From assembly GCF_000819845.1 (NCBI RefSeq), contig NZ_CDCG01000040.1, forward strand, positions 168,533 through 232,532: a DNA stretch of 64,000 bases. The letters run 5' to 3'. The DNA is from Aeromonas enteropelogenes (lineage in GTDB: Bacteria > Pseudomonadota > Gammaproteobacteria > Enterobacterales > Aeromonadaceae). The notes under the pieces are model-generated. The model saw nothing but the letters and a program-made list of their open reading frames with translations. It had not been told where the DNA came from and searched no databases. This document shows, one piece after another, positions 20,848 through 30,467 of this stretch (positions are counted from its first letter, which is position 1; every line of letters begins with the position of its first letter). Both the position numbers and the translations under genes were made by a program.

Positions 20848-20878
20848 AAGGCCTCGTTACGGGGCCTTGTTGTTTTTT
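20848..20878. terminator. Terminator between convergent yebE-like and mocR genes
   Basis: AAGGCCtCG / CGgGGCCTT stem with a short TTA centre, then TGTTGTTTTTT. It overlaps the last codons of the minus-strand MocR gene. Confidence 0.75.
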
Positions 20879-22296
20879 GGAGGAATGGCGTCCAGCTGCT
20901 GGTGGATAAGCTCGGCCAGCCGGGTGAGAGCCCCCTCCAACTGCTCGCTCCAAGGATGGGAGCTGTTGAGCCGCAGGCAGTGGTTGTGCAGCCCCTTGCT
21001 GGAAAAGAGCGCGCCGGGCGCCAGTGAGAAACCGCTGGCCAGCGCCCGGGCGTGCAGGGAGCGGCTGTCGAGGCGCGGGTCAAACTCGAGCCAGAGAAAG
21101 TAGCCGCCATCGGGGGAGGAGATGCTCACTTCCCCCGGCAACAGGCGTAGCAGGGCGGCCCGCATCTGCTGCTGGCGCTGGGCCAGGGTGTGGCGCAACC
21201 GGCGAAAGTGGGCATCCACCCCGCCCTGGCGCAGCATCTCGGCCAGCGCCAATTGGCTTGGCACATTGGTGGAGAGGGTCGACATCAGTTGCAGCCGCTG
21301 CACCCGTTCGGCGTGGCGACCCGCCACCACCCAGCCGACCCGAAACCCGGGTGCCAGGCATTTTGAAAAGGAGCTGCACAGCAGGCTGTCATCACGCTTG
21401 TCCCAATACTTGATGGGCCTTGGCCGCTCGCGGCCGAAATAGACCTCGGCATAGACGTCGTCCTCCACCAGCGGCACTCCATGTTCGTTGAGCAGCGTCA
21501 TCAGCGCCTGCTTGTGCTCGTCGGGCATGGTATGACCGAGCGGGTGCTGGACATTGCCCATCAACCAGCACGCCTTGACGGGCATGCAGATGAGGGCATC
21601 TTCCAGCTGTGCCAGATCGATACCCACCCCCGGGATCACCGGGATCTCCACCGCCTTGAGCTTGAGTCGCTCGATGGTCTGCAGGGCGCCATAGAAGGTA
21701 GGGGACTCCACCACCACCCAGTCACCTGGTTCGGTCAGCACTTGCAGGCTGAGGGAGAGCGCCTCCATGGCGCCGGTGGTGATGATGATCTCCCCGGGAT
21801 CGACCGCCAGCCCCTCGCTGGCGTAGCGCTGGGCGATGGCGCGACGCAGCGCCTCGTTGCCGGGGGGCAGGTCTGCCACCGTGCTGAAGGGATCGAGCCG
21901 ACGCATGCAGCTGGCCAGTGCCCGGCCGAGTTGGGGGTGGGGAAAGAGGGTGGGATCTGCCACCGACATGCCCAGCGGCACCAGCTCTCGCGACTTGCTC
22001 GCCTGCAACACCTCGAATACCAGATCGTTGATGTCCACCGAACCGCTGTAGTGGGTCTGGCGAGGGGGATGGTGCGCCACCTTTGGTGAGGCTGCCTTGA
22101 CGTAGTAGCCGGACTGGGGGCGAGCGAGGATCCGCCCCTGACTCTCCAGCAACTGATAGGCCTGCAGCACCGTCATGGGGCTCAGATTGTGGTTTTTGCA
22201 GCTCTGGCGGATGGAGGGGATGCGTTCCCCCGGTTGCCAAATGCCGTCATCGATCTCGCAGCTCAGACGTTCTGCCAACTGTTGGTAAAGGGGCAT
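20857..22296 (-). CDS. MocR-type PLP-dependent transcriptional regulator
   Basis: 479 residues. An N-terminal GntR-type winged helix (residues 1-70: PLYQQLAERL, ERIPSIRQSCKNHNLS, GRILARPQSGYYV) is fused to a fold-type I aminotransferase domain with the PLP lysine in SSFSKCLAPGFRVGW. Such regulators sense amino-acid or PLP-derived ligands. I use the ATG at 22296; a TTG at 22308 is in frame but lacks a ribosome site. It diverges from cydA, and operator-like repeats fill the shared region, so it probably controls itself and the cyd operon. Confidence 0.93.
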   Translation of the reverse strand: MPLYQQLAERLSCEIDDGIWQPGERIPSIRQSCKNHNLSPMTVLQAYQLLESQGRILARPQSGYYVKAASPKVAHHPPRQTHYSGSVDINDLVFEVLQASKSRELVPLGMSVADPTLFPHPQLGRALASCMRRLDPFSTVADLPPGNEALRRAIAQRYASEGLAVDPGEIIITTGAMEALSLSLQVLTEPGDWVVVESPTFYGALQTIERLKLKAVEIPVIPGVGIDLAQLEDALICMPVKACWLMGNVQHPLGHTMPDEHKQALMTLLNEHGVPLVEDDVYAEVYFGRERPRPIKYWDKRDDSLLCSSFSKCLAPGFRVGWVVAGRHAERVQRLQLMSTLSTNVPSQLALAEMLRQGGVDAHFRRLRHTLAQRQQQMRAALLRLLPGEVSISSPDGGYFLWLEFDPRLDSRSLHARALASGFSLAPGALFSSKGLHNHCLRLNSSHPWSEQLEGALTRLAELIHQQLDAIPPKNNKAP

Positions 22297-22308
22297 GAAC
22301 TGATCCAA

Positions 22309-22355
22309 CTGTTATAGGTGTTATTTACTATAACTGCATCTGTTATAGGTGTCAT
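22309..22355. promoter_or_regulatory. Repeated operator-like sites between mocR and cydA
   Basis: CTGTTATAGGTGT occurs twice in direct orientation, at 22309 and 22340 (31 bases, three helical turns, apart). Between them CTATAACTG (22329-22337) is a near-inverted copy. The AT-rich cores (TATAAC/TATAGT) could also serve as -10 elements for mocR. Direct repeats near two to three turns apart are usual for MocR dimers such as PdxR and GabR. Confidence 0.65.
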
Positions 22356-22418
22356 GGCTCGTGGTGTACTTGTTACGCATTAAACGCGCAAGACAAATAC
22401 AACAAAAGAGAGTGATAC

Positions 22419-23990
22419 ATGATCAATCCGGATGACGTGGTCAGCCTGTCGCGCCTGCAATTTGGCGCCACCGCTCTGTTCCACTTTCTGTTTGTCCCCC
22501 TTACCTTGGGACTGTCCTGGATCCTGGTGATCGCCGAATCGGCCTACGTGATGACCGGCAAGGCGATTTATCAGGACATTACCCGCTTCTGGGGCAAGCT
22601 GTTTGGCATCAACTTCGTGATGGGGGTCACTACGGGGATCACCATGGAGTTTCAGTTTGGTACCAATTGGGCTTACTACTCCCAGTACGTGGGGGACATC
22701 TTCGGTACCCCGCTTGCCATTGAGGGGCTGATGGCCTTCTTCCTCGAATCCACTCTGGTGGGGCTTTTCTTCTTTGGCTGGGACAAGCTCTCCCGCGGTC
22801 AACACCTGTTGGTGACCATGTTGGTGGCGCTCGGCTCCAACCTATCGGCACTCTGGATCCTCATCGGCAACGGCTGGATGCAAAACCCGGTAGGGGCCGA
22901 GTTTAACCTGCTTACCCAGCGGATGGAGCTGGTGGATATCGCCGCCGTATTGCTCAATCCGGTGGCGCAGGTCAAGTTCGTCCACACGGTGGCGGCGGGA
23001 TATGTGGCCGCCTCCCTGTTCGTGATGGGGGTGAGCAGCTGGTATCTGCTGCGCAAGACCGAAGTGCAGTTTGCCCTGCGCTCCTTTGCCATCGCCTCGG
23101 GCTTTGGTCTCGCGGCCATCCTCTCGGTCATCGTGCTCGGTGACGAGTCGGGTTATCGCACCGGCGAGGTACAGAAGGTCAAACTGGCCGCCATCGAGGC
23201 GGAGTGGGAGACGGAGCCCGCGCCGGCCGCCTTTACCCTGTTTGGTTTTCCGGATCAGGGCGCCGAGACCACCCATGCCGCGGTCAAGATCCCCTACCTG
23301 ATGGGCATCATCGCCACCCGCTCCCTCGATGAGCAGGTGACAGGTCTCAAAGATCTGAAAGCGCAGCACGAGGCGCGCATTCGCAGTGGCATGGTGGCCG
23401 CCGGGGCGCTCGAGCAGATCCGGGCTGGCAACGACTCAGCCGAAAACAGGGCGCTCTTTGACAAGCACGGCCAGGATCTTGGCTACGGGCTGCTGCTCAC
23501 ACCCTATGCCAGGAATATCGCCAAGGCGGGTGAGGAAGAGATCGCCAAAGCGGTAGAGGACTCCATCCCGCAAGTGGCACCGCTGTTTTGGAGTTTTCGC
23601 CTGATGGTAGGACTCGGGGTCGTCATGCTGGGGCTGATGGTGGTGAGCTTTGTCCAGCTCTGTCGTAACCGGCTGCTCGCCTCGCCCCGCCTGCTCAAGG
23701 CGCTGCTGTGGAGCATTCCGCTCCCCTGGATTGCCATCGAGGCGGGCTGGTTCGTGGCCGAGTTTGGTCGCCAGCCCTGGACCATCAGTGACGTGCTGCC
23801 GGTGTCGGCCTCGGTGTCGCTGCTGACCCCAGGCCAGCTCTGGTTCAGCCTCATCTCCATCTGTTCTATCTACACCCTCTTGCTGGTAGTGGAGCTCTTC
23901 CTGTTGCGTCATGTGATCCGCAAGGGGCCAGTCATTATCCGTGCCAGCCGTGACGCTGGTGAACAATCCGAACTTGCGAGGATCGCCTGA
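22419..23990 (+). CDS. cydA: Cytochrome bd ubiquinol oxidase subunit I
   Basis: 523 residues, very close to E. coli CydA in length and sequence, including the long Q-loop ([20 protein letters not shown] onward). Haem ligands are visible: the early His in LFHFLFVPL (b595/d side), His in [11 protein letters not shown] (b558) and Met in FRLMVGLG (b558). GRQPW is the subunit I signature. It oxidises quinol and reduces oxygen without copper. RBS AGAGAG precedes the ATG. cydB follows with a one-base overlap. Confidence 0.97.
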
Positions 23991-25129
23991 TGGATTACGC
24001 AACTCTGAAACTCATCTGGTGGGCGCTGCTGCTCTTCATGATGGTCGGCTTTATCGTGATGGATGGCTTCGATCTCGGCGTGGCCATGCAACTGCCCGTG
24101 GTCTCGGAGGATGACGAGGACAGACGGATGGTGATCAACAGCGTGGGGCCGGTATGGGAGGGCAACCAGGTGTGGCTGATCGCGGGGGCTGGCGCCCTGT
24201 TTGCCGCCTGGCCGCTGGTCTACGCTGCCGCCTTCTCGGTGCTTTATATCCCCATGGTGGTGCTGCTGCTCGGCCTTTTTCTGCGCCCGGTCGGTTTTGA
24301 CTATCGCAGCAAGCTGACCGACCCAGTGTGGCGTCGCTGGTGGGACAGAGCGCTGGTGGCAGGCGGTTTGGTGCCGACCCTGATCCTCGGTGCTGCCATC
24401 GGACTCGTGATGCAGGGGTTGCCATTTCGCTTCGACAGTGCCCTGCGTCTGCACTATGGCGCCTTTATCTTTCACTGGGGTTGGTTGCTTTCGGTGCTGG
24501 CGACTGTCATCAGCCTGATGCTGTTACACGGAGCCAGCTTTCTGCAGGCCAAGGTGACGGGAACGCCAGCTCTGCGCGCACGCGGGCTTGCTATCTTGCT
24601 GGCGCCACTGGTGACCCTCTGCTATCTGCGGGCTGGCTGGTATCTGGTGGATCTACAGGGTTATCAACTGACCGGCCTTGCAGGCCAGCCCTTTGATCCC
24701 GATACGGCCATGAGTCCCCTGATGAAGGGGGTGAGCGTCCACGCTGCTGGTTGGTTGCGCAACTACTACGAACAACCGCTGTTCTGGCTGGTGCCCGTCA
24801 TCGGGGCCGTTGCACCGCTGGTGAGTGGTCTTGCCGCCTGGCAGGAGAAGGGACGGTTGGCACTGCTGGCCAGTGGCCTGGCCTGCGCCGCCATGCTCTG
24901 CTCGGTGGCTATCGCCCTGTTCCCCTTCGTGCTGCCCTCATCGCTGGATCCGGCAAGCAGCCTGACCCTGTGGGATGGTACCTCCAGTTACAGGACGTTG
25001 GCCATCATGCTCGGGATCGTGTTGGTGATGATGCCGGTCAACCTGGGTTATACCGGCTGGGTGTATCGGGTAGTGCGGGGCAAGCTCGACCGTGCCCTCA
25101 TCAAGCGCGACAGCCATCAACTCTACTGA
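23990..25129 (+). CDS. cydB: Cytochrome bd ubiquinol oxidase subunit II
   Basis: 379 residues. [21 protein letters not shown] at the N-terminus (first helix, split here at residue 11 onward) and [12 protein letters not shown] are CydB signatures; about eight to nine membrane helices. It pairs with CydA; the TGATG junction gives translational coupling. CydX starts 20 bases after its stop. Confidence 0.97.
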
Positions 25130-25149
25130 CAGTAAGTAAGGAGGACATC

Positions 25150-25272
25150 ATGTGGTACTTCACCTGGATGCTGGGGCTCGGCTTTGCCCTGCTGCTGGGC
25201 CTGTGCAATCTGCTCTGGCTGGAGGCACGCTGGGAAGCCGATGAACGGGATGAGTTCCGCTCTCAACCCTGA
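25150..25272 (+). CDS. cydX: Cytochrome bd small subunit CydX
   Basis: 40 residues, a single membrane helix. MWYFTWMLGLG at the start matches CydX (MWYFAWILG in E. coli) and the acidic C-terminus (EADERDEF) is also typical. It stabilises the haem-containing CydAB core. AAGGAGG lies upstream of the ATG at 25150. A strong terminator follows directly. Confidence 0.93.
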   Translation: MWYFTWMLGLGFALLLGLCNLLWLEARWEADERDEFRSQP

Positions 25273-25279
25273 TCCCCCC

Positions 25280-25320
25280 GGTCGGGGAGGGCAGGCACTG
25301 CCTCGCCCCGACCCCTTTTT
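25280..25320 (+). terminator. Intrinsic terminator or attenuator after cydX
   Basis: GGTCGGGG / CCCCGACC outer stem with an inner AGGGCAG / CTGCCT extension, then CCTTTTT. Only 29 bases lie between the T tract and the ATG of the next gene, too few for a full promoter, so partial read-through into the MBL-hvf genes is likely. Confidence 0.85.
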
Positions 25321-25349
25321 CTTGTCATCCAACCGACAGGTAATCCGTT

Positions 25350-26324
25350 ATGAAACAGACAATCAAAGCGGTGACGCTGGCCATCGGCTGCGCGCTCGTC
25401 ACTGCGCCAGCCTGGGCCGAGCCCGTACAACTGACGCCACTGGACAAGGCATTCACCCTGCAGGTGCTCGGCAGCGGCGGCCCCATCTCCGACGATCTGC
25501 GTGCCTCCTCGAGCGAGGTGATCTGGTGGAAGGGCAAATCGCGCATCCTGATCGATGCCGGCGGTGGCGTCTATCTGCGCTTTGGCCAGGCGGGCGCCAA
25601 GCTCGAAGAGGTCGACTTTATCGGCATCACCCACTTTCACACCGATCATGTGACCGATCTGCCCGCGCTGCTCAAAGGGGCCTACTTCTTCAAGCGCAGC
25701 GATCCGCTCGATCTGGCGGGGCCGCAAGCCGGCTCGGCCTTCCCCAGCATGAGCGGCTACTTTGACGCCCTGTTCAACCCGAGCAAGGGGGCTTATGCCT
25801 ACCTGAGCGGGTTCAAGGATGGTAGTGATGGCCTCTTCCCCATCACCCTGCACGATGTGCCCTACCAGACCGTACGGCCGCAACAGGTTTATCAGCAGGA
25901 TGGCTTGACCATCACGGCGCTCGGCATCCCCCACGGGGACGTGCCCTGTCTGGCCTATCGCATCGAGAGCGCGGAGGGGACCATCGTCATTTCGGCGGAT
26001 CAGAATGGTTCCAATCCAGCCTTCCTCGATTTTGCTCGTGGAGCCGATATCCTGGTGATGCCACTTGCCATCCACGAGGATGCCGATCCCGTCTCCGCCA
26101 CACTCCATGCCAAGCCTTCTGTGGTAGCCAGGATTGCCAACGAGGTGAACCCGAAGCTGCTGGTGCTTAACCACTGGATGGGGATTGGGCTCAGTCACAA
26201 GACCGAAGCGCTCGCCATCGTCAAATCGCAGTTCCACGGTCAGCTGGTGGCTGCTCGCGATCTCTCCAGCTATCCACTCTCATCCCTCAAGGAGGCCAAT
26301 CATGATGAAGAACGTAACCAGTAA
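25350..26324 (+). CDS. Secreted MBL-fold metallohydrolase in the cyd-hvf locus
   Basis: 324 residues. A signal peptide (MKQTIKAVTLAIGCALVTAPAWA) is followed by a metallo-beta-lactamase fold with HFHTDH (H95, H97, D99, H100), GIPHGDVPCLAYRI and ISADQNGSN as later metal/strand motifs, and LNHWMG near the end. Closest in style to RNase Z/arylsulfatase-like periplasmic MBL enzymes; substrate unknown. Its last 23 bases overlap the hvfA-like gene, which has its ribosome site (GGAGG, 26291) inside it, so the two are translated together. Confidence 0.88.
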   Translation: MKQTIKAVTLAIGCALVTAPAWAEPVQLTPLDKAFTLQVLGSGGPISDDLRASSSEVIWWKGKSRILIDAGGGVYLRFGQAGAKLEEVDFIGITHFHTDHVTDLPALLKGAYFFKRSDPLDLAGPQAGSAFPSMSGYFDALFNPSKGAYAYLSGFKDGSDGLFPITLHDVPYQTVRPQQVYQQDGLTITALGIPHGDVPCLAYRIESAEGTIVISADQNGSNPAFLDFARGADILVMPLAIHEDADPVSATLHAKPSVVARIANEVNPKLLVLNHWMGIGLSHKTEALAIVKSQFHGQLVAARDLSSYPLSSLKEANHDEERNQ

Positions 26325-26625
26325 ACTGACCCTCTCCATCGCCATAACGGGGCTCATCGCCTTGACTCCGGAGTTGGCACTGGGGGCAGCGCCGAGCGAT
26401 GCGCCGGTGAAAGCCGCCCCGAGCGAACAGCATGGTGGCAAGTGTGCGGCAGGCAAGTGCGGCACCGAGAAGCGTTTCGAGAAGCAGACCCTCGATAGCG
26501 ATCCACAGGATCGACTGGTGCGTGCTCGTGACGGCAAGTGCGGAGTGGCAGGGCAGGGAGTGGACGGTGACAAGTCCCGTGTCGAGAGTGACAGCAAGAT
26601 GACGGAGGGAGTATGCGGTCAATAA
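26302..26625 (+). CDS. hvfA: HvfA/bufferin-like RiPP precursor peptide
   Basis: 107 residues. A signal peptide (residues 1-29, ending ALGA) precedes a short charged mature part with only four cysteines, each in a Gly-rich motif: GGKC48, AGKC53G, DGKC80G and EGVC105G. These resemble the EGKCG motifs that MNIO enzymes convert to heterocycles in HvfA and bufferins, which bind copper in the periplasm. The next gene encodes just such an enzyme and overlaps it by 13 bases. Identity as precursor is strong from context; actual modification is inferred. Confidence 0.85.
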   Translation: MMKNVTSKLTLSIAITGLIALTPELALGAAPSDAPVKAAPSEQHGGKCAAGKCGTEKRFEKQTLDSDPQDRLVRARDGKCGVAGQGVDGDKSRVESDSKMTEGVCGQ

Positions 26626-27485
26626 GCTTCCACAGTCGGGGGATAGGGCTGCGTCAGGAACATTTGACACAGCTCTGCGAAGAGCCGGCGCACCCCTCTA
26701 TCGACTTTCTCGAGCTGGCGCCAGAGAACTGGATGGCTATCGGTGGAGCCAAGCGGGAGCAGCTGCACCAGATCGCCGAACGTTATCCGCTGGTGGCTCA
26801 TGGTCTGAGCCTCTCTCTTGGCGACTGCCAGCCACTCAACCACACACTGCTCGGCCAGATCCGTGCCTTTCTGGACGAGTTTGCCATCGATATTTACAGC
26901 GAACACCTGAGTTTTTCCCGTGATGCACAGGGGTATCTTTACGAGCTGCTGCCGATACCGCGCCAGTGGGAGAATATCCCCTATCTGGCTGCCCGGATCA
27001 CGCAGGTACAGGATGTGCTGGCCCGCCCTCTGGTGCTGGAGAATATCTCCTACTACTACAACTATGACCACGAGATGACCGAGGAGGATTTTCTGGCCGA
27101 GCTGGTGGCGCGCAGCGGTTGCGAGCTCTTGCTCGACATCAACAACGTCTACGTCAACAGCCGTAACCATGACTACTGTCCCAAACGGATGATCGCCGGC
27201 TTACCGGGCTCGGCGATCCGCTACTTTCACATCGCCGGTCACCTCAAAGAACGGGATGGCACACTGCTCGATACCCATGGCAGGCCGGTATGTGATGCAG
27301 TAGTGGCACTGGCTCGGTACACGGTGGAAACCCACGGGTTGCGCCCCCTACTGCTGGAGCGGGATCATTATTTGCCACCGTTGGCGGAGCTGGAGGCCGA
27401 GCTGTCCTGGATCCATGAAGCTTGTTGTCAGGTGGCTGACAAGCCACCGGCACAGGAGTCGATGCTGGAGGTGAACCATGGATAA
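26613..27485 (+). CDS. hvfB: MNIO-family (DUF692) peptide-modifying oxidase, HvfB-like
   Basis: 290 residues, a TIM-barrel multinuclear non-haem iron oxidase. Candidate metal ligands lie in conserved places: H63 (VAHGLSLSLGD), H98 (SEHLSFS), E143/N144 (VLENISYYY), D175/N177 (LLLDINNVYVN), H206/H210 (YFHIAGH) and E249 (LLERDH). Relatives MbnB, BufB and HvfB oxidise precursor cysteines to oxazolone or thiooxazole groups. GGAGGGAGT precedes the ATG at 26613, within the 3' end of the precursor gene. Confidence 0.93.
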   Translation: MRSISFHSRGIGLRQEHLTQLCEEPAHPSIDFLELAPENWMAIGGAKREQLHQIAERYPLVAHGLSLSLGDCQPLNHTLLGQIRAFLDEFAIDIYSEHLSFSRDAQGYLYELLPIPRQWENIPYLAARITQVQDVLARPLVLENISYYYNYDHEMTEEDFLAELVARSGCELLLDINNVYVNSRNHDYCPKRMIAGLPGSAIRYFHIAGHLKERDGTLLDTHGRPVCDAVVALARYTVETHGLRPLLLERDHYLPPLAELEAELSWIHEACCQVADKPPAQESMLEVNHG

Positions 27486-28341
27486 ATGGCTATTGTCGCA
27501 GAACGAGTCTGCGTCGGCAGAGCTACCCCCTGTGTGGTTGCAGCAGCAAATCGAGTGGCTGGCCAGCCGAGTACGCCAACCGAAAGAGAACGTCGCTTGC
27601 CACTATGTTCGCAGCGTGCGGGCTAATGTGGAGTATGTGCTGGAGAGCTGCTTTGGGCTCACCCTTGGCTATCTGTCGCCTGATGAGTGCCGCAAGCTGG
27701 TGGAAGGCTTCGTCACCCACCATGGTGCTCTTGAGCCTGCTTTTCATCATATTGCCACCGAGTTTGTTCGCTATGTGCAGCGGCGCTGCAAGAGTGCTCC
27801 GCAACCTGGCGGCGAGGTGCCGCTTAATTGGCCAAGGCAGTGGCTGGCCTTGCTGGAGTACGAGTGGGCCTGTCTCGGGGTAGAGATTGACGAGGCGCAG
27901 GTGCCGCTCCCCGTCATAGGGGAAAAAGTCGTGGCAGAGAGTTGCCTGCGGCTCAATCCTACTCTGCAGCTTCTTAATCTTCCCTTTGTCATCCGTAGCA
28001 ACGGCGTAGTCGCGAGTCGGCAGGAGAGCCATTACCACGCCCTGTTTCGCACACCCGATCATCAGGTGGTAACCCAACTGCTGCGTACACAGGATGTAGC
28101 CCTGATCCAGCGACTTGACCAACAGGAAGTGGTGAGCGTTGTCAGGTTCGAACAGCAGTTGCGACGCTTTCACAACGGTTTCGATCTGCTGGCATGGGCT
28201 CGTCATTTTCACCAGCTTGGTTTGCTCACCATGCAGCTCCCGGTAATCGGCCATCAGGCGCTCTTATCTGACAAACTCCAAGGAGAATTTCATGAACAAT
28301 CCCCTTATCCATTGGTACGAGCGGGCTGTGGCTCAGTGTAA
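27478..28341 (+). CDS. hvfC: DUF2063 partner protein, HvfC-like
   Basis: 287 residues. The N-terminal helical half (VWLQQQIEWLASRV, HYVRSVRANVEYVLESCF, FVTHHGALEPAFHHIATEF) matches the DUF2063/BufC-HvfC family that pairs with DUF692 enzymes and is thought to bind the precursor leader. The C-terminal half is a winged-helix-like region. Its ATG overlaps the end of hvfB by eight bases, and its own end overlaps hvfX by 50 bases, an unusually long overlap. Confidence 0.88.
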   Translation: MDKWLLSQNESASAELPPVWLQQQIEWLASRVRQPKENVACHYVRSVRANVEYVLESCFGLTLGYLSPDECRKLVEGFVTHHGALEPAFHHIATEFVRYVQRRCKSAPQPGGEVPLNWPRQWLALLEYEWACLGVEIDEAQVPLPVIGEKVVAESCLRLNPTLQLLNLPFVIRSNGVVASRQESHYHALFRTPDHQVVTQLLRTQDVALIQRLDQQEVVSVVRFEQQLRRFHNGFDLLAWARHFHQLGLLTMQLPVIGHQALLSDKLQGEFHEQSPYPLVRAGCGSV

Positions 28342-28897
28342 GCGGCTCGATTTTCTTGCTCTGCTGGCGATTCGTCTCTACCTCATCCCGGTCATCTATG
28401 TGGGGGCCCACTCCAAGGTGGTGGGTTTTGCCGGCACCGTCGCCTGGTTTGGCGCACCGGTATCGGAAGGAGGCCTAAACCTGCCGTTCCCGACCCTGCT
28501 CGCCTTTCTGGCGGCGGGTACCGAGGTGCTGGGCTGTATCTGCATCGCCCTTGGTCTCTTTACCCGCATCATGGCCATTCCGACCATCTTCCTGATGAGC
28601 GTGGCGAGCGCCATGGTGCACTGGAAGCACGGCTGGGATGCCATTGCCACCGGCAGCATGGAGGCGACATTGCGCCTCAACGGCTTTATCGAGTGGTTGG
28701 CCGCCAACTTCCCCGGTCGTTACAACTACATCACCGAGCTCGGGGATCCCGTGATGCTCAACAACGGGATGGAGTTTGCCGCCACCTACTTCGTGATGCT
28801 GCTGGTGCTGCTGGTGTACGGCGGCGGTCGCTACGTCAGCCTCGACTACTGGCTGACACGCGCCGTGACAGGCAAGGCCGGGCCGCAAGCGGCATAA
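28292..28897 (+). CDS. hvfX: DoxX-family membrane protein, HvfX-like
   Basis: 201 residues, four membrane helices in the DoxX fold (LALLAIRLYLIPVIYVGAHSK, LLAFLAAGTEVLGCICIALG, IMAIPTIFLMSVASAMV, FAATYFVMLLVLLVYG). DoxX proteins accompany DUF692/DUF2063 pairs in bufferin and Hvf operons; a quinone or thiol-redox role has been suggested but not shown. RBS AAGGAGAA precedes the ATG, located inside hvfC. A strong terminator ends the operon. Confidence 0.9.
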   Translation: MNNPLIHWYERAVAQCKRLDFLALLAIRLYLIPVIYVGAHSKVVGFAGTVAWFGAPVSEGGLNLPFPTLLAFLAAGTEVLGCICIALGLFTRIMAIPTIFLMSVASAMVHWKHGWDAIATGSMEATLRLNGFIEWLAANFPGRYNYITELGDPVMLNNGMEFAATYFVMLLVLLVYGGGRYVSLDYWLTRAVTGKAGPQAA

Positions 28898-28929
28898 CAA
28901 AAACAAAGTAAACAGAGCGTGAAAGCGAG

Positions 28930-28960
28930 ACGAGCGGCATCAGCCGCTCGTTTTTATTTT
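28930..28960 (+). terminator. Terminator of the cyd-hvf operon
   Basis: ACGAGCGGC / GCCGCTCGT nine-bp stem with an ATCA loop followed by TTTTATTTT. Confidence 0.92.
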
Positions 28961-28981: not shown

Positions 28982-30163
28982 TCAATTCTGGGGGCAGGCC
29001 TGTGCCATCCGAGCGGCTTGCCGTTCACTCAGATGGGTGAGGCCATAGGCCAGCAGCACAATAAGGGCGCCTATCCAGGGGGTGTGCATCAGGCCGAGGT
29101 GCTCCACCACCAGGCCGCCGACCACGGAGCCCAGCGTAATGCCGACGTTGAAGGCGGCGATATTGAGGCCGGAGGCTACGTCCACCGCCCTTGGAGTGTG
29201 CTGCTCGGCCTGTTTGACCACCAGCACCTGCAGCCCGGGTACGTTGCCAAAGGCAAAGGCGCCCCACACCAGCACGGTGAGCACTGCTAGCACCGGATGG
29301 GGGGCGGTGAAGGTGAGCACCAGCAGCACCATAGCGAGACCTGCAAATAGCAGCTTCAGCGCCGGCAATGGGCCCAGACGGTCGGCCAGCTTACCGCCCC
29401 AGATATTGCCGACGGCGACCGATACCCCGTACACCAGCAGGATGAGGCTCACCGCACCGGCGCTAAAGCCGCTTACCTGTTGCAGGATGGGGGCGAGGAA
29501 GGTAAAGGCCGTGAAGGCGCCGCCGTAACCCAGCGCGGTCTTGGCGTAGACCAGCAGCAAGGGCTTTTTGGTGAGCACGGAGAGCTGATCGCGGATGGTC
29601 GAGGCCGCTCCTTTGGGCAGGTTATTGGGGATCAGCAGCAGGCTGCCCACCATGGCGACCAGCCCCAGCAGGCTCACCACCAGAAAGGTGTCGCGCCAGC
29701 CAAAGACCTGACCAATCCAGGTGCCTAGCGGTACGCCGGTCACCAGCGCGATGGTGAGGCCGCTGAACATGATGGCGATGGCGCTGGCTGCTTTCTCTTT
29801 GGCCACGAGGCCGGTGGCGATGGTGCTGCCCACCGAGAAGAAGACCCCGTGGGCCAGCCCGGTCAGGATGCGGGCCAGGATCAGGCTCTCGTAACCGGGG
29901 GCCTGCCAGGCCAGCAGGTTGCCGGCGGTAAAGAGCGCCATCAGCCCCACCAGCAGCCACTTGCGCGGCACCTTGCCGGTGAGTGCCGTGAGCAGAGGGG
30001 CGCCGATGGCCACGCCAAGGGCATAGAGGCTGACCAAGAGGCCCGCCGAGGGAAGCGAGACCTGAAGCTGGTCGGCGATGGTGGGAATGAGCCCCACGAT
30101 CACGAATTCGGTGGTGCCGATCGCAAAGGCACTTAAGGTGAGGGCAAACAACGCCAGTGGCAT
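28982..30163 (-). CDS. MFS efflux transporter (AraJ/YdhP-like)
   Basis: 393 residues, twelve predicted helices. FAIGTTEFVIVGLIPTIA and LTGLAHGVFFSVGSTIA are hallmark stretches of the DHA1-type AraJ/YdhP/SotB subfamily that exports sugars or drugs. I use the ATG at 30163, which has AAGGAG six bases before it; upstream in-frame codons give a non-hydrophobic extension. Substrate unknown. It converges on the hvf operon and diverges from the HAD gene. Confidence 0.92.
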   Translation of the reverse strand: MPLALFALTLSAFAIGTTEFVIVGLIPTIADQLQVSLPSAGLLVSLYALGVAIGAPLLTALTGKVPRKWLLVGLMALFTAGNLLAWQAPGYESLILARILTGLAHGVFFSVGSTIATGLVAKEKAASAIAIMFSGLTIALVTGVPLGTWIGQVFGWRDTFLVVSLLGLVAMVGSLLLIPNNLPKGAASTIRDQLSVLTKKPLLLVYAKTALGYGGAFTAFTFLAPILQQVSGFSAGAVSLILLVYGVSVAVGNIWGGKLADRLGPLPALKLLFAGLAMVLLVLTFTAPHPVLAVLTVLVWGAFAFGNVPGLQVLVVKQAEQHTPRAVDVASGLNIAAFNVGITLGSVVGGLVVEHLGLMHTPWIGALIVLLAYGLTHLSERQAARMAQACPQN

Positions 30164-30467
30164 AACAACTCCTTGGATGGTGACTCCCGACGGGAGAATG
30201 GCGCCAGTATGCCGAGGCAGTTTGTTGGCAAAAATGACGGCATATTCAAATGACTTTTGATCAATTCGCATCAATCTGGCCGTTAATCGCCTTCTCCCCC
30301 TGGCTTGCTGTGGCTATTGGCAGTGGTGTCATATTGCACTCGTTGGGCGTTGGGGTAAGCTCCGGTAGATGGTTTAGGTGCTGGTGCAGGAGTGGCCCGG
30401 ATACATGACGGGGGATGTCGCTCAGGGCTGCCAGTCATGGCTTTTCCCTTGCAAAACAGGACACAAG
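30164..30467. other. Divergent promoter region, MFS gene / HAD gene
   Basis: 304 bases without a gene. An AT-rich stretch at 30228-30270 with CAAATGACTTTTGATCAATT is the likely MFS promoter/operator zone. No further structure recognised. Confidence 0.4.

Follow-up and report, generated by a model that had tools for sequence, protein, structure and literature searches.

Why does a bacterium keep the genes for a second cytochrome bd oxidase directly beside those for a modified peptide? The question is raised by a locus of Aeromonas enteropelogenes, in a stretch of 64,000 nt from contig NZ_CDCG01000040.1 (the window, from a genome of 4.47 Mb), in which three cytochrome bd genes, cydA2, cydB2 and cydX, are followed by five genes, hereafter the module, encoding an exported metallo-β-lactamase (MBL)-fold protein, the precursor of a ribosomally synthesized and post-translationally modified peptide (RiPP), an HvfB-like multinuclear non-haem iron-dependent oxidative enzyme (MNIO), its HvfC-like partner and the membrane protein HvfX. 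A preliminary description of this DNA had proposed that a metal-binding RiPP and cytochrome bd belong together here, as one operon with a 'thiopeptide' as its product. The central idea has strong comparative support, whereas the single operon and the thiopeptide did not stand, and we consider it very probable that the link between oxidase and module is functional. The link itself is well supported; the mechanism that we infer for it, in which a RiPP buffers metal alongside a copper-free oxidase, is put forward with moderate confidence.

Recurrent linkage of the module with cytochrome bd

A scan of GTDB genomes with an alignment of the MBL protein gave at least 79 loci, of which at least 43 carry the module; the latter figure is a lower bound, and all counts out of 43 are among the matches listed. 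These loci come from Vibrio (11), Aeromonas (7), Sphingomonas (7), Novosphingobium (4), Aliivibrio, Photobacterium, Cysteiniphilum and Chromobacterium (2 each) and, with one locus each, a Sphingomonas-like isolate, Acetobacter, a Sphingomonadales metagenome-assembled genome (MAG), Pseudomonas, Francisella philomiragia and a gammaproteobacterial MAG. The order MBL-precursor-HvfB-HvfC-HvfX is kept in Aeromonas, Vibrionaceae, Chromobacterium, Sphingomonadales, Pseudomonas, Cysteiniphilum and F. philomiragia, and in one locus (L156) the module ends at the contig edge after hvfB. An even sample of the class (369 genomes) contained 39 genomes with an MBL match at E ≤ 1e-20, and among the 28 loci whose neighbours were read (L084-L111) there were four carriers of the module (G247, G109, G307 and G352; G307 is the MAG of L170).

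A check of co-occurrence across genomes, as proposed in the preliminary description, showed that the pairing recurs outside Aeromonas: cydAB or its remnant stands at the edge of the module, on either side, in 24 of the 43 loci. The cyd genes lie upstream of the module in Aeromonas (7/7) and Photobacterium (2/2) and downstream in Vibrio (7 intact and 1 scrap of 11), Aliivibrio (2/2) and Chromobacterium (1/2), and genes of the cyanide-insensitive oxidase (CIO) type lie upstream in Sphingomonas (1 intact and 2 scraps of 7) and in the Acetobacter record; the cydA scraps are those of V. pectenicida and two Sphingomonas. Two more loci (L158 and L167) have a bd gene within about 10 kb, and the other 17 have none in the stretch examined. 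Over 7.7 kb the record of Acetobacter sicerae (L162), which has a deletion in cydA, shares 99.7% identity with Sphingomonas sp. MA1305 (L164) and is thus not an independent case; contamination or very recent transfer would account for this identity. In V. anguillarum (L139, 35-1929) and V. ordalii (L140, 3538-5858) a CIO-type cydAB is found on the opposite side of the module, which thus has a bd oxidase at either side.

As a control for this linkage we took the other MNIO genes present in 36 of the module genomes. Of the 36 module MNIO genes, 16 have an intact cydA within 5 kb, vs none of the 28 other MNIO genes (Fisher p 2e-5), and 17 have one within 12 kb, vs 1/28 (p 7e-5); these p values are not corrected for relatedness, a cydA on another contig was scored as not near, remnants were not scored as intact and L163 was left out. 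The 36 other MBL loci listed, which lack the five-gene module, gave no cyd match, a weak control because most of them belong to different taxa. Among 118 evenly sampled Vibrio genomes, 16 have the module MBL gene and 12 have the linked CydA subtype, taken as 83-100% identity to V. jasicida CydA (the next matches being a partial one at 78% and full-length ones at 76% and lower), with the module 2.5-2.8 kb away in 12/12. The module without the subtype was found in 4 of these genomes, neither in 102 and the subtype alone in none (Fisher p 2e-13, again not corrected for relatedness).

On a quick tree of CydA (76 rows) the linked sequences fall in four separate places: inside the Aeromonas cydA2 group, in a Vibrionaceae clade apart from canonical CydA, and among the CIO proteins of Chromobacterium and of Sphingomonas, these last two placements being single rows each. 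Sequences from L240 and L241 were left out of the tree, and L135 has no cydA on its contig. At least four joinings of cyd genes and module would be the simplest reading of this tree, replacement of one ancestral partner in place being a less simple but possible alternative; on the module tree (47 rows) the label of being cyd-adjacent or not needs 6 changes. That the same pairing recurs with four CydA lineages suggests that the module and the oxidase work together.

Within Aeromonas, 11 of 37 genomes have the module, always behind cydAB2; in the remainder, 20 have cydAB2 alone, 4 are without cydAB2 and 2 carry scars directly behind cydX, namely MBL scraps in G032 (L043, 7056-7269) and HvfX residues 170-193 in G026 (L050, 7134-7205), which are footprints of module loss. 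A major facilitator superfamily (MFS) gene follows cydAB2 in 19 of the 20 module-free, scar-free genomes. On Aeromonas gene trees, built from 27 to 32 of 33 loci, the label of carrying a module or scar needs one change on cydA2 and cydB2 (support 94 and 47), two on mocR, the regulator gene upstream, and four each on the MFS gene, dn2 and up1, with starred branches forcing 2, 2, 3 and 3 changes for mocR, MFS, dn2 and up1, respectively. The fewer changes on the cydA2 and cydB2 trees are suggestive, on these small trees, of a module that tracks cydAB more closely than it does the flanking genes.

The locus, its proteins and related systems

The gene set and the divergent MocR regulator were borne out, as listed earlier, by open reading frames, Pfam and NCBIfam. 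The mocR gene (20857..22308, minus strand) encodes a MocR/PdxR-type regulator with Pfam GntR and Aminotran_1_2 domains and scores under the NCBIfam cut-offs; Aeromonas genomes have it whether or not they carry the module, which assigns it to the cyd side. Divergent from it, on the plus strand, lie cydA2 (22419..23990), cydB2 (23990..25129) and cydX (25150..25272), followed by the genes for the MBL protein (25350..26324), the precursor (26302..26625), HvfB (26613..27485), HvfC (27478..28341) and HvfX (28292..28897), each gene overlapping the next by 1 to 50 nt or standing 20 or 77 nt from it, with the 77 nt between cydX and the MBL gene. CydA2 (subunit I, 523 residues; PF01654, 562.7 bits; GRQPW at residue 450), CydB2 (subunit II; TIGR00203, 377.8 bits, cut-off 117.3) and the small subunit CydX (40 residues) make up a complete cytochrome bd, GRQPW motif included. 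CydX is supported by its translation and its conservation in most Aeromonas relatives, and the Pfam scan, in which the scanned stretch was one base out of frame, gave no match. A separate cydABX copy stands elsewhere in the genome, to which cydA2 and cydB2 are paralogues with 66% and 42% identity, and a second MNIO gene, unlinked to the locus, is found at C2 of the same genome (G000). The window copy thus has subunits I, II and X and GRQPW in common with the cytochrome bd-I and CIO operons (cydABX and cioAB) and differs from them as a paralogue beside a RiPP module. Beyond the module, and convergent with it, lies a Cmx/CmrA-like MFS transporter gene (28982-30274; 299 bits, cut-off 400) that is kept with or without the module.

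The precursor (107 residues with a signal peptide) has no Pfam or NCBIfam match, DUF2282 (Buf1-type) in the Pfam scan included. Its core reads GKCAAGKCG ... RDGKCG ... GVCGQ, with cysteines 48, 53, 80 and 105, all four of which are invariant in 15 aligned rows. A CxxxxC motif, Cys48 and Cys53 of KCAAGKCG in the window copy, is present in 47/47 module rows and the core is similar across all of them; EGKCG is absent from the precursor, the window copy showing GGKCA, AGKCG, DGKCG and GVCG. The signal peptides of this protein and of the MBL protein were judged by eye. HvfB, the peptide-modifying enzyme (DUF692; PF05114, 309.4 bits, cut-off 25), is homologous to 3BWW and scores 326.7 bits with the HvfB equivalog model, under its cut-off of 360, and HvfC (DUF2063; PF09836, 28.5 bits, cut-off 27.2) scores 77 bits with the HvfC model, under its cut-off of 142. 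HvfX, of the DoxX type, matches its own model (NF050144, 198.8 bits, cut-off 80) and PF07681 over cut-off, and is among the best-kept proteins of the module, with 95-99% identity within Aeromonas and 66-80% to seven rows of other genera. The window HvfC is only 57-60% identical to ten other Aeromonas copies, for which HvfB shows 82-85% and HvfX 96-98%, and the A. dhakensis HvfC is likewise 59-60% identical to other Aeromonas copies.

The MBL protein (Lactamase_B_2, 57.8 bits, cut-off 27) is of the RNase Z/PNGM-1/YhfI type, and its HxHxDH residues H95, H97, D99 and H100 are kept in 46/46 rows with letters there. A Foldseek search with its structural model (pLDDT 71), together with a sequence search, points to a likeness with PNGM-1, YhfI, RNase Z and an arylsulfatase entry. 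H195 and D217 are altered in three rows of one clade (L112, L113 and L168), so the metal site may differ there. An orthodox RNase Z was rejected because the scores fall below NCBIfam cut-offs and the protein, judged by eye, is exported; an unrelated insertion was rejected because the gene is conserved together with the module. A known anti-phage role for the module was also rejected, since its five proteins have no PADLOC match.

The product had been called a thiopeptide, a name that belongs to another class of RiPP. This was wrong, since MNIO-HvfC enzymes are reported to install thiooxazole or oxazolone-thioamide groups (PMC12452194, PMC13097082). By motif and gene content the module matches the published 'CxxxxC' MNIO clusters of Pseudomonadota (Antoine et al. 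2025, PMC12452194), which have in common with it the signal peptide, CxxxxC, MNIO, DUF2063, DoxX and an MBL gene. A Lactamase_B_2 gene is contained in 54% of these clusters (PMC12452194), so that the MNIO-MBL pairing is already known and the MBL gene is not the extra component of unclear connection for which it had been taken. The claim that the combination was undescribed is therefore narrowed, as the type of five-gene module is already in print and we found no description of its link with cytochrome bd. That link is not described in the accessible text of PMC12452194, where the main text is without the word 'cytochrome' and Cytochrom_C domain fusions of Buf1 are named, and PMC13097082 and PMC12538549 mention neither 'lactamase' nor 'cytochrome'; a literature search that left subscription journals mostly outside gave no paper joining cytochrome bd with DUF692, DUF2063 or MNIO. 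The Hvf/oxazolin (Buf_EGKCG), bufferin (Buf1/Buf2) and 'captophorin' systems (PMC13097082) share HvfB/HvfC/HvfX-type proteins, a probable thiooxazole-type cysteine modification and copper binding, whereas the window differs from Hvf/oxazolin and the bufferins in its absence of EGKCG and of a DUF2282 match, its extra exported MBL protein and its bd neighbour.

Signals between and upstream of the two blocks

The preliminary description had the genes lying head to tail, and the small gaps and overlaps stand; a single uninterrupted cyd-hvf unit was rejected, and one operon is not demonstrated, because the 77 nt from cydX to the MBL gene contain a terminator-like hairpin. This element (25280..25325, plus strand; RNA fold -26.4 kcal/mol) consists of a long, G+C-rich stem-loop at 25280-25313 followed downstream by TTTTTCTT / CCTTTTTCTTGT, with its T-run. 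Equally stable shuffles numbered 2/200 for 25262-25325 and 14/200 for 25262-25335, and the hairpin was not listed by a simple terminator scan; it looks like an intrinsic terminator or attenuator. The intrinsic terminator that closes the module (28927..28954, plus strand; -25.4 kcal/mol, with 0/200 shuffles as stable) was listed by the scan.

When 11 Aeromonas cydX-MBL gaps were scanned, a hairpin with a T-run at that place was found in the window only; by eye the A. dhakensis gap has the stem but an interrupted T-run, and there are Ns in that of A. veronii. A hairpin with a T-run is present in both Photobacterium (cydX-MBL) and Chromobacterium (hvfX-cioA), a weaker one (-10.4 kcal/mol) lies between hvfX and cydA in one Aliivibrio examined, and none of six Vibrio hvfX-cydA junctions examined has a stable terminator-like hairpin. 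An 8-bp stem stands immediately 5' of the cydA ribosome-binding site in 13/13 Vibrio junctions in which an ATG start was found (G538, with no ATG start found, is outside this set), and the one Aliivibrio junction examined is without it. In this stem, for example at 13493-13512 of L141, 98.9% of cells pair over 11 different sequences and two pairs show changes on both sides; a role in the control or processing of RNA between hvfX and cydA is possible.

Two exact direct repeats of CTGTTATAGGTGTNAT (22309-22324 and 22340-22355, plus strand) lie between mocR and cydA2, the only matches in the window, where 0.01 is expected in shuffles. Similar repeats were seen by eye upstream of cydA2 in A. dhakensis, A. 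veronii and two module-free Aeromonas, and they are perhaps MocR sites. A second signal, the palindrome TTGAY-N4-ATCAA, which resembles the FNR consensus (an FNR/DNR-like box), is found 74-105 nt 5' of the MBL start in 14 of 15 named Vibrionaceae, V. ostreicida being the exception, and at -141 and -223 in two Chromobacterium (in L196 the MBL coordinate used falls inside the gene). Box-bearing loci number 18 among the 43 module loci vs 0.8 expected from letter shuffles, and two of the 18 are Aeromonas matches about 319 nt upstream, inside cydB, which are not counted as sites. No such box was found near the MBL gene in seven named Aeromonas, or before cydA2 of the window or of A. dhakensis. Universal FNR-type control of the module was not kept as an idea, since the box is missing from 5 of the 8 further Vibrio genomes examined and, near the MBL gene, from the seven named Aeromonas.

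A proposed metal-buffering mechanism and its alternatives

Taking cysteine modification and copper binding by analogy from papers on related families, we infer which metal is bound, what the trigger is and how the parts share the work, as follows. HvfB and HvfC would convert the precursor cysteines into thiooxazole-type metal ligands in the cytoplasm, and the peptide, exported by Sec, would bind Cu(I) or a soft metal akin to it in the periplasm; HvfX and the MBL protein would help to mature the peptide or to handle the metal. In the same situation, that of metal stress and perhaps low oxygen, copper-dependent oxidases would fail or be under-assembled, and the copper-free bd oxidase would then carry respiration; both copper excess and copper shortage are candidate triggers. 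Bufferins aid growth under copper stress (PMC12452194), MNIO-HvfC products bind copper (PMC13097082) and Bordetella pertussis requires CydAB when copper is scarce (PMC12914433). In Mycobacterium tuberculosis respiration under copper shortage is sustained jointly by cytochrome bd and a copper-binding peptide product, the chalkophore (PMC12140626), although the chalkophore is a diisonitrile lipopeptide and not a RiPP, and its link with bd is physiological and not one of gene linkage.

Several observations weigh against this pairing of a metal-buffering RiPP with cytochrome bd. The preliminary description would have counted independent placement of the cyd and hvf blocks in relatives as a refutation, and such placement is seen in part: 19 of the 43 module loci have no bd gene at the edge and 22 of 37 Aeromonas genomes keep cydAB2 without an intact module, but the two stand together, in both orders, with four CydA lineages. 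The four non-Aeromonas carriers of the class sample have no bd gene in the stretch read, and a hairpin with a T-run parts the two blocks in the window, Photobacterium, Chromobacterium and, weakly, Aliivibrio. The FNR-like box is present in just 3 of the 8 further Vibrio genomes and is absent before the window's module, and no copper regulator or exporter was recognised in the five-gene module by Pfam or NCBIfam. In addition, a bufferin mutation in a cydAB-deletion strain of B. pertussis did not copy the copper-import defect (PMC12914433), and related Microbulbifer peptides were undetected with added copper (PMC12538549).

A more specific form of the same pairing, which we entertain only tentatively, is a RiPP-dependent respiratory branch, in which a dedicated bd isoform would work with the MNIO-modified periplasmic peptide and HvfX, these acting as metal guard, chaperone or electron donor, across the four bd lineages and two bd types.

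HvfX belongs to the DoxX/DoxD family, and DoxD is part of thiosulfate:quinone oxidoreductase. HvfX might accordingly feed electrons from periplasmic thiol or metal oxidation to the quinone pool, with the linked bd as quinol sink, so that the oxidase would directly serve RiPP maturation or detoxification. The conservation of HvfX and its position adjoining cydA in the 10 listed loci with intact downstream cyd (7 Vibrio, 2 Aliivibrio and 1 Chromobacterium) are consistent with such coupling; however, copies of the module without adjacent cyd exist, and some CydA match was present in 36/36 carrier genomes searched (in G449 only a scrap), so a dedicated quinol sink is not obviously needed, and we regard both the coupling and the direct service to the RiPP as rather unlikely.

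Cytochrome bd resists nitric oxide (NO), sulfide and cyanide, and the module and the oxidase could instead both be answers to one of these when oxygen is low, in which case reactive nitrogen or sulfur species would be what the MBL protein and modified thiols act on. The FNR/DNR-like palindrome before the MBL gene in the named Vibrionaceae and both Chromobacterium, and the use of CIO-type bd in the Chromobacterium and Sphingomonas links, would fit such a shared stress, but the box is missing before the window's module and in most of the further Vibrio, and the MNIO-HvfC products tested bind copper (PMC13097082), which leaves little probability for a stress other than copper. Least probable, and already disfavoured, is hitchhiking, in which chance and shared mobility brought the blocks together without shared function: patchy presence, the hairpin with T-run between the blocks in four lineages, the majority of Aeromonas that keep cyd without the module and a linked locus nearly identical in two unrelated records would suit it, but four places on the CydA tree with both gene orders, a Vibrio subtype never found without the module and the absence of such a neighbour from other MNIO genes of the same genomes (0/28 within 5 kb, 1/28 within 12 kb) argue against it.

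Copper-binding MNIO peptides are a recent finding, and their recurrent pairing with cytochrome bd suggests that this branch of the family serves respiration. The pairing also offers a reason for the presence of a second bd oxidase in some bacteria, as in the Vibrio subtype, which has the module beside it in all 12 genomes of the sample that carry the subtype.

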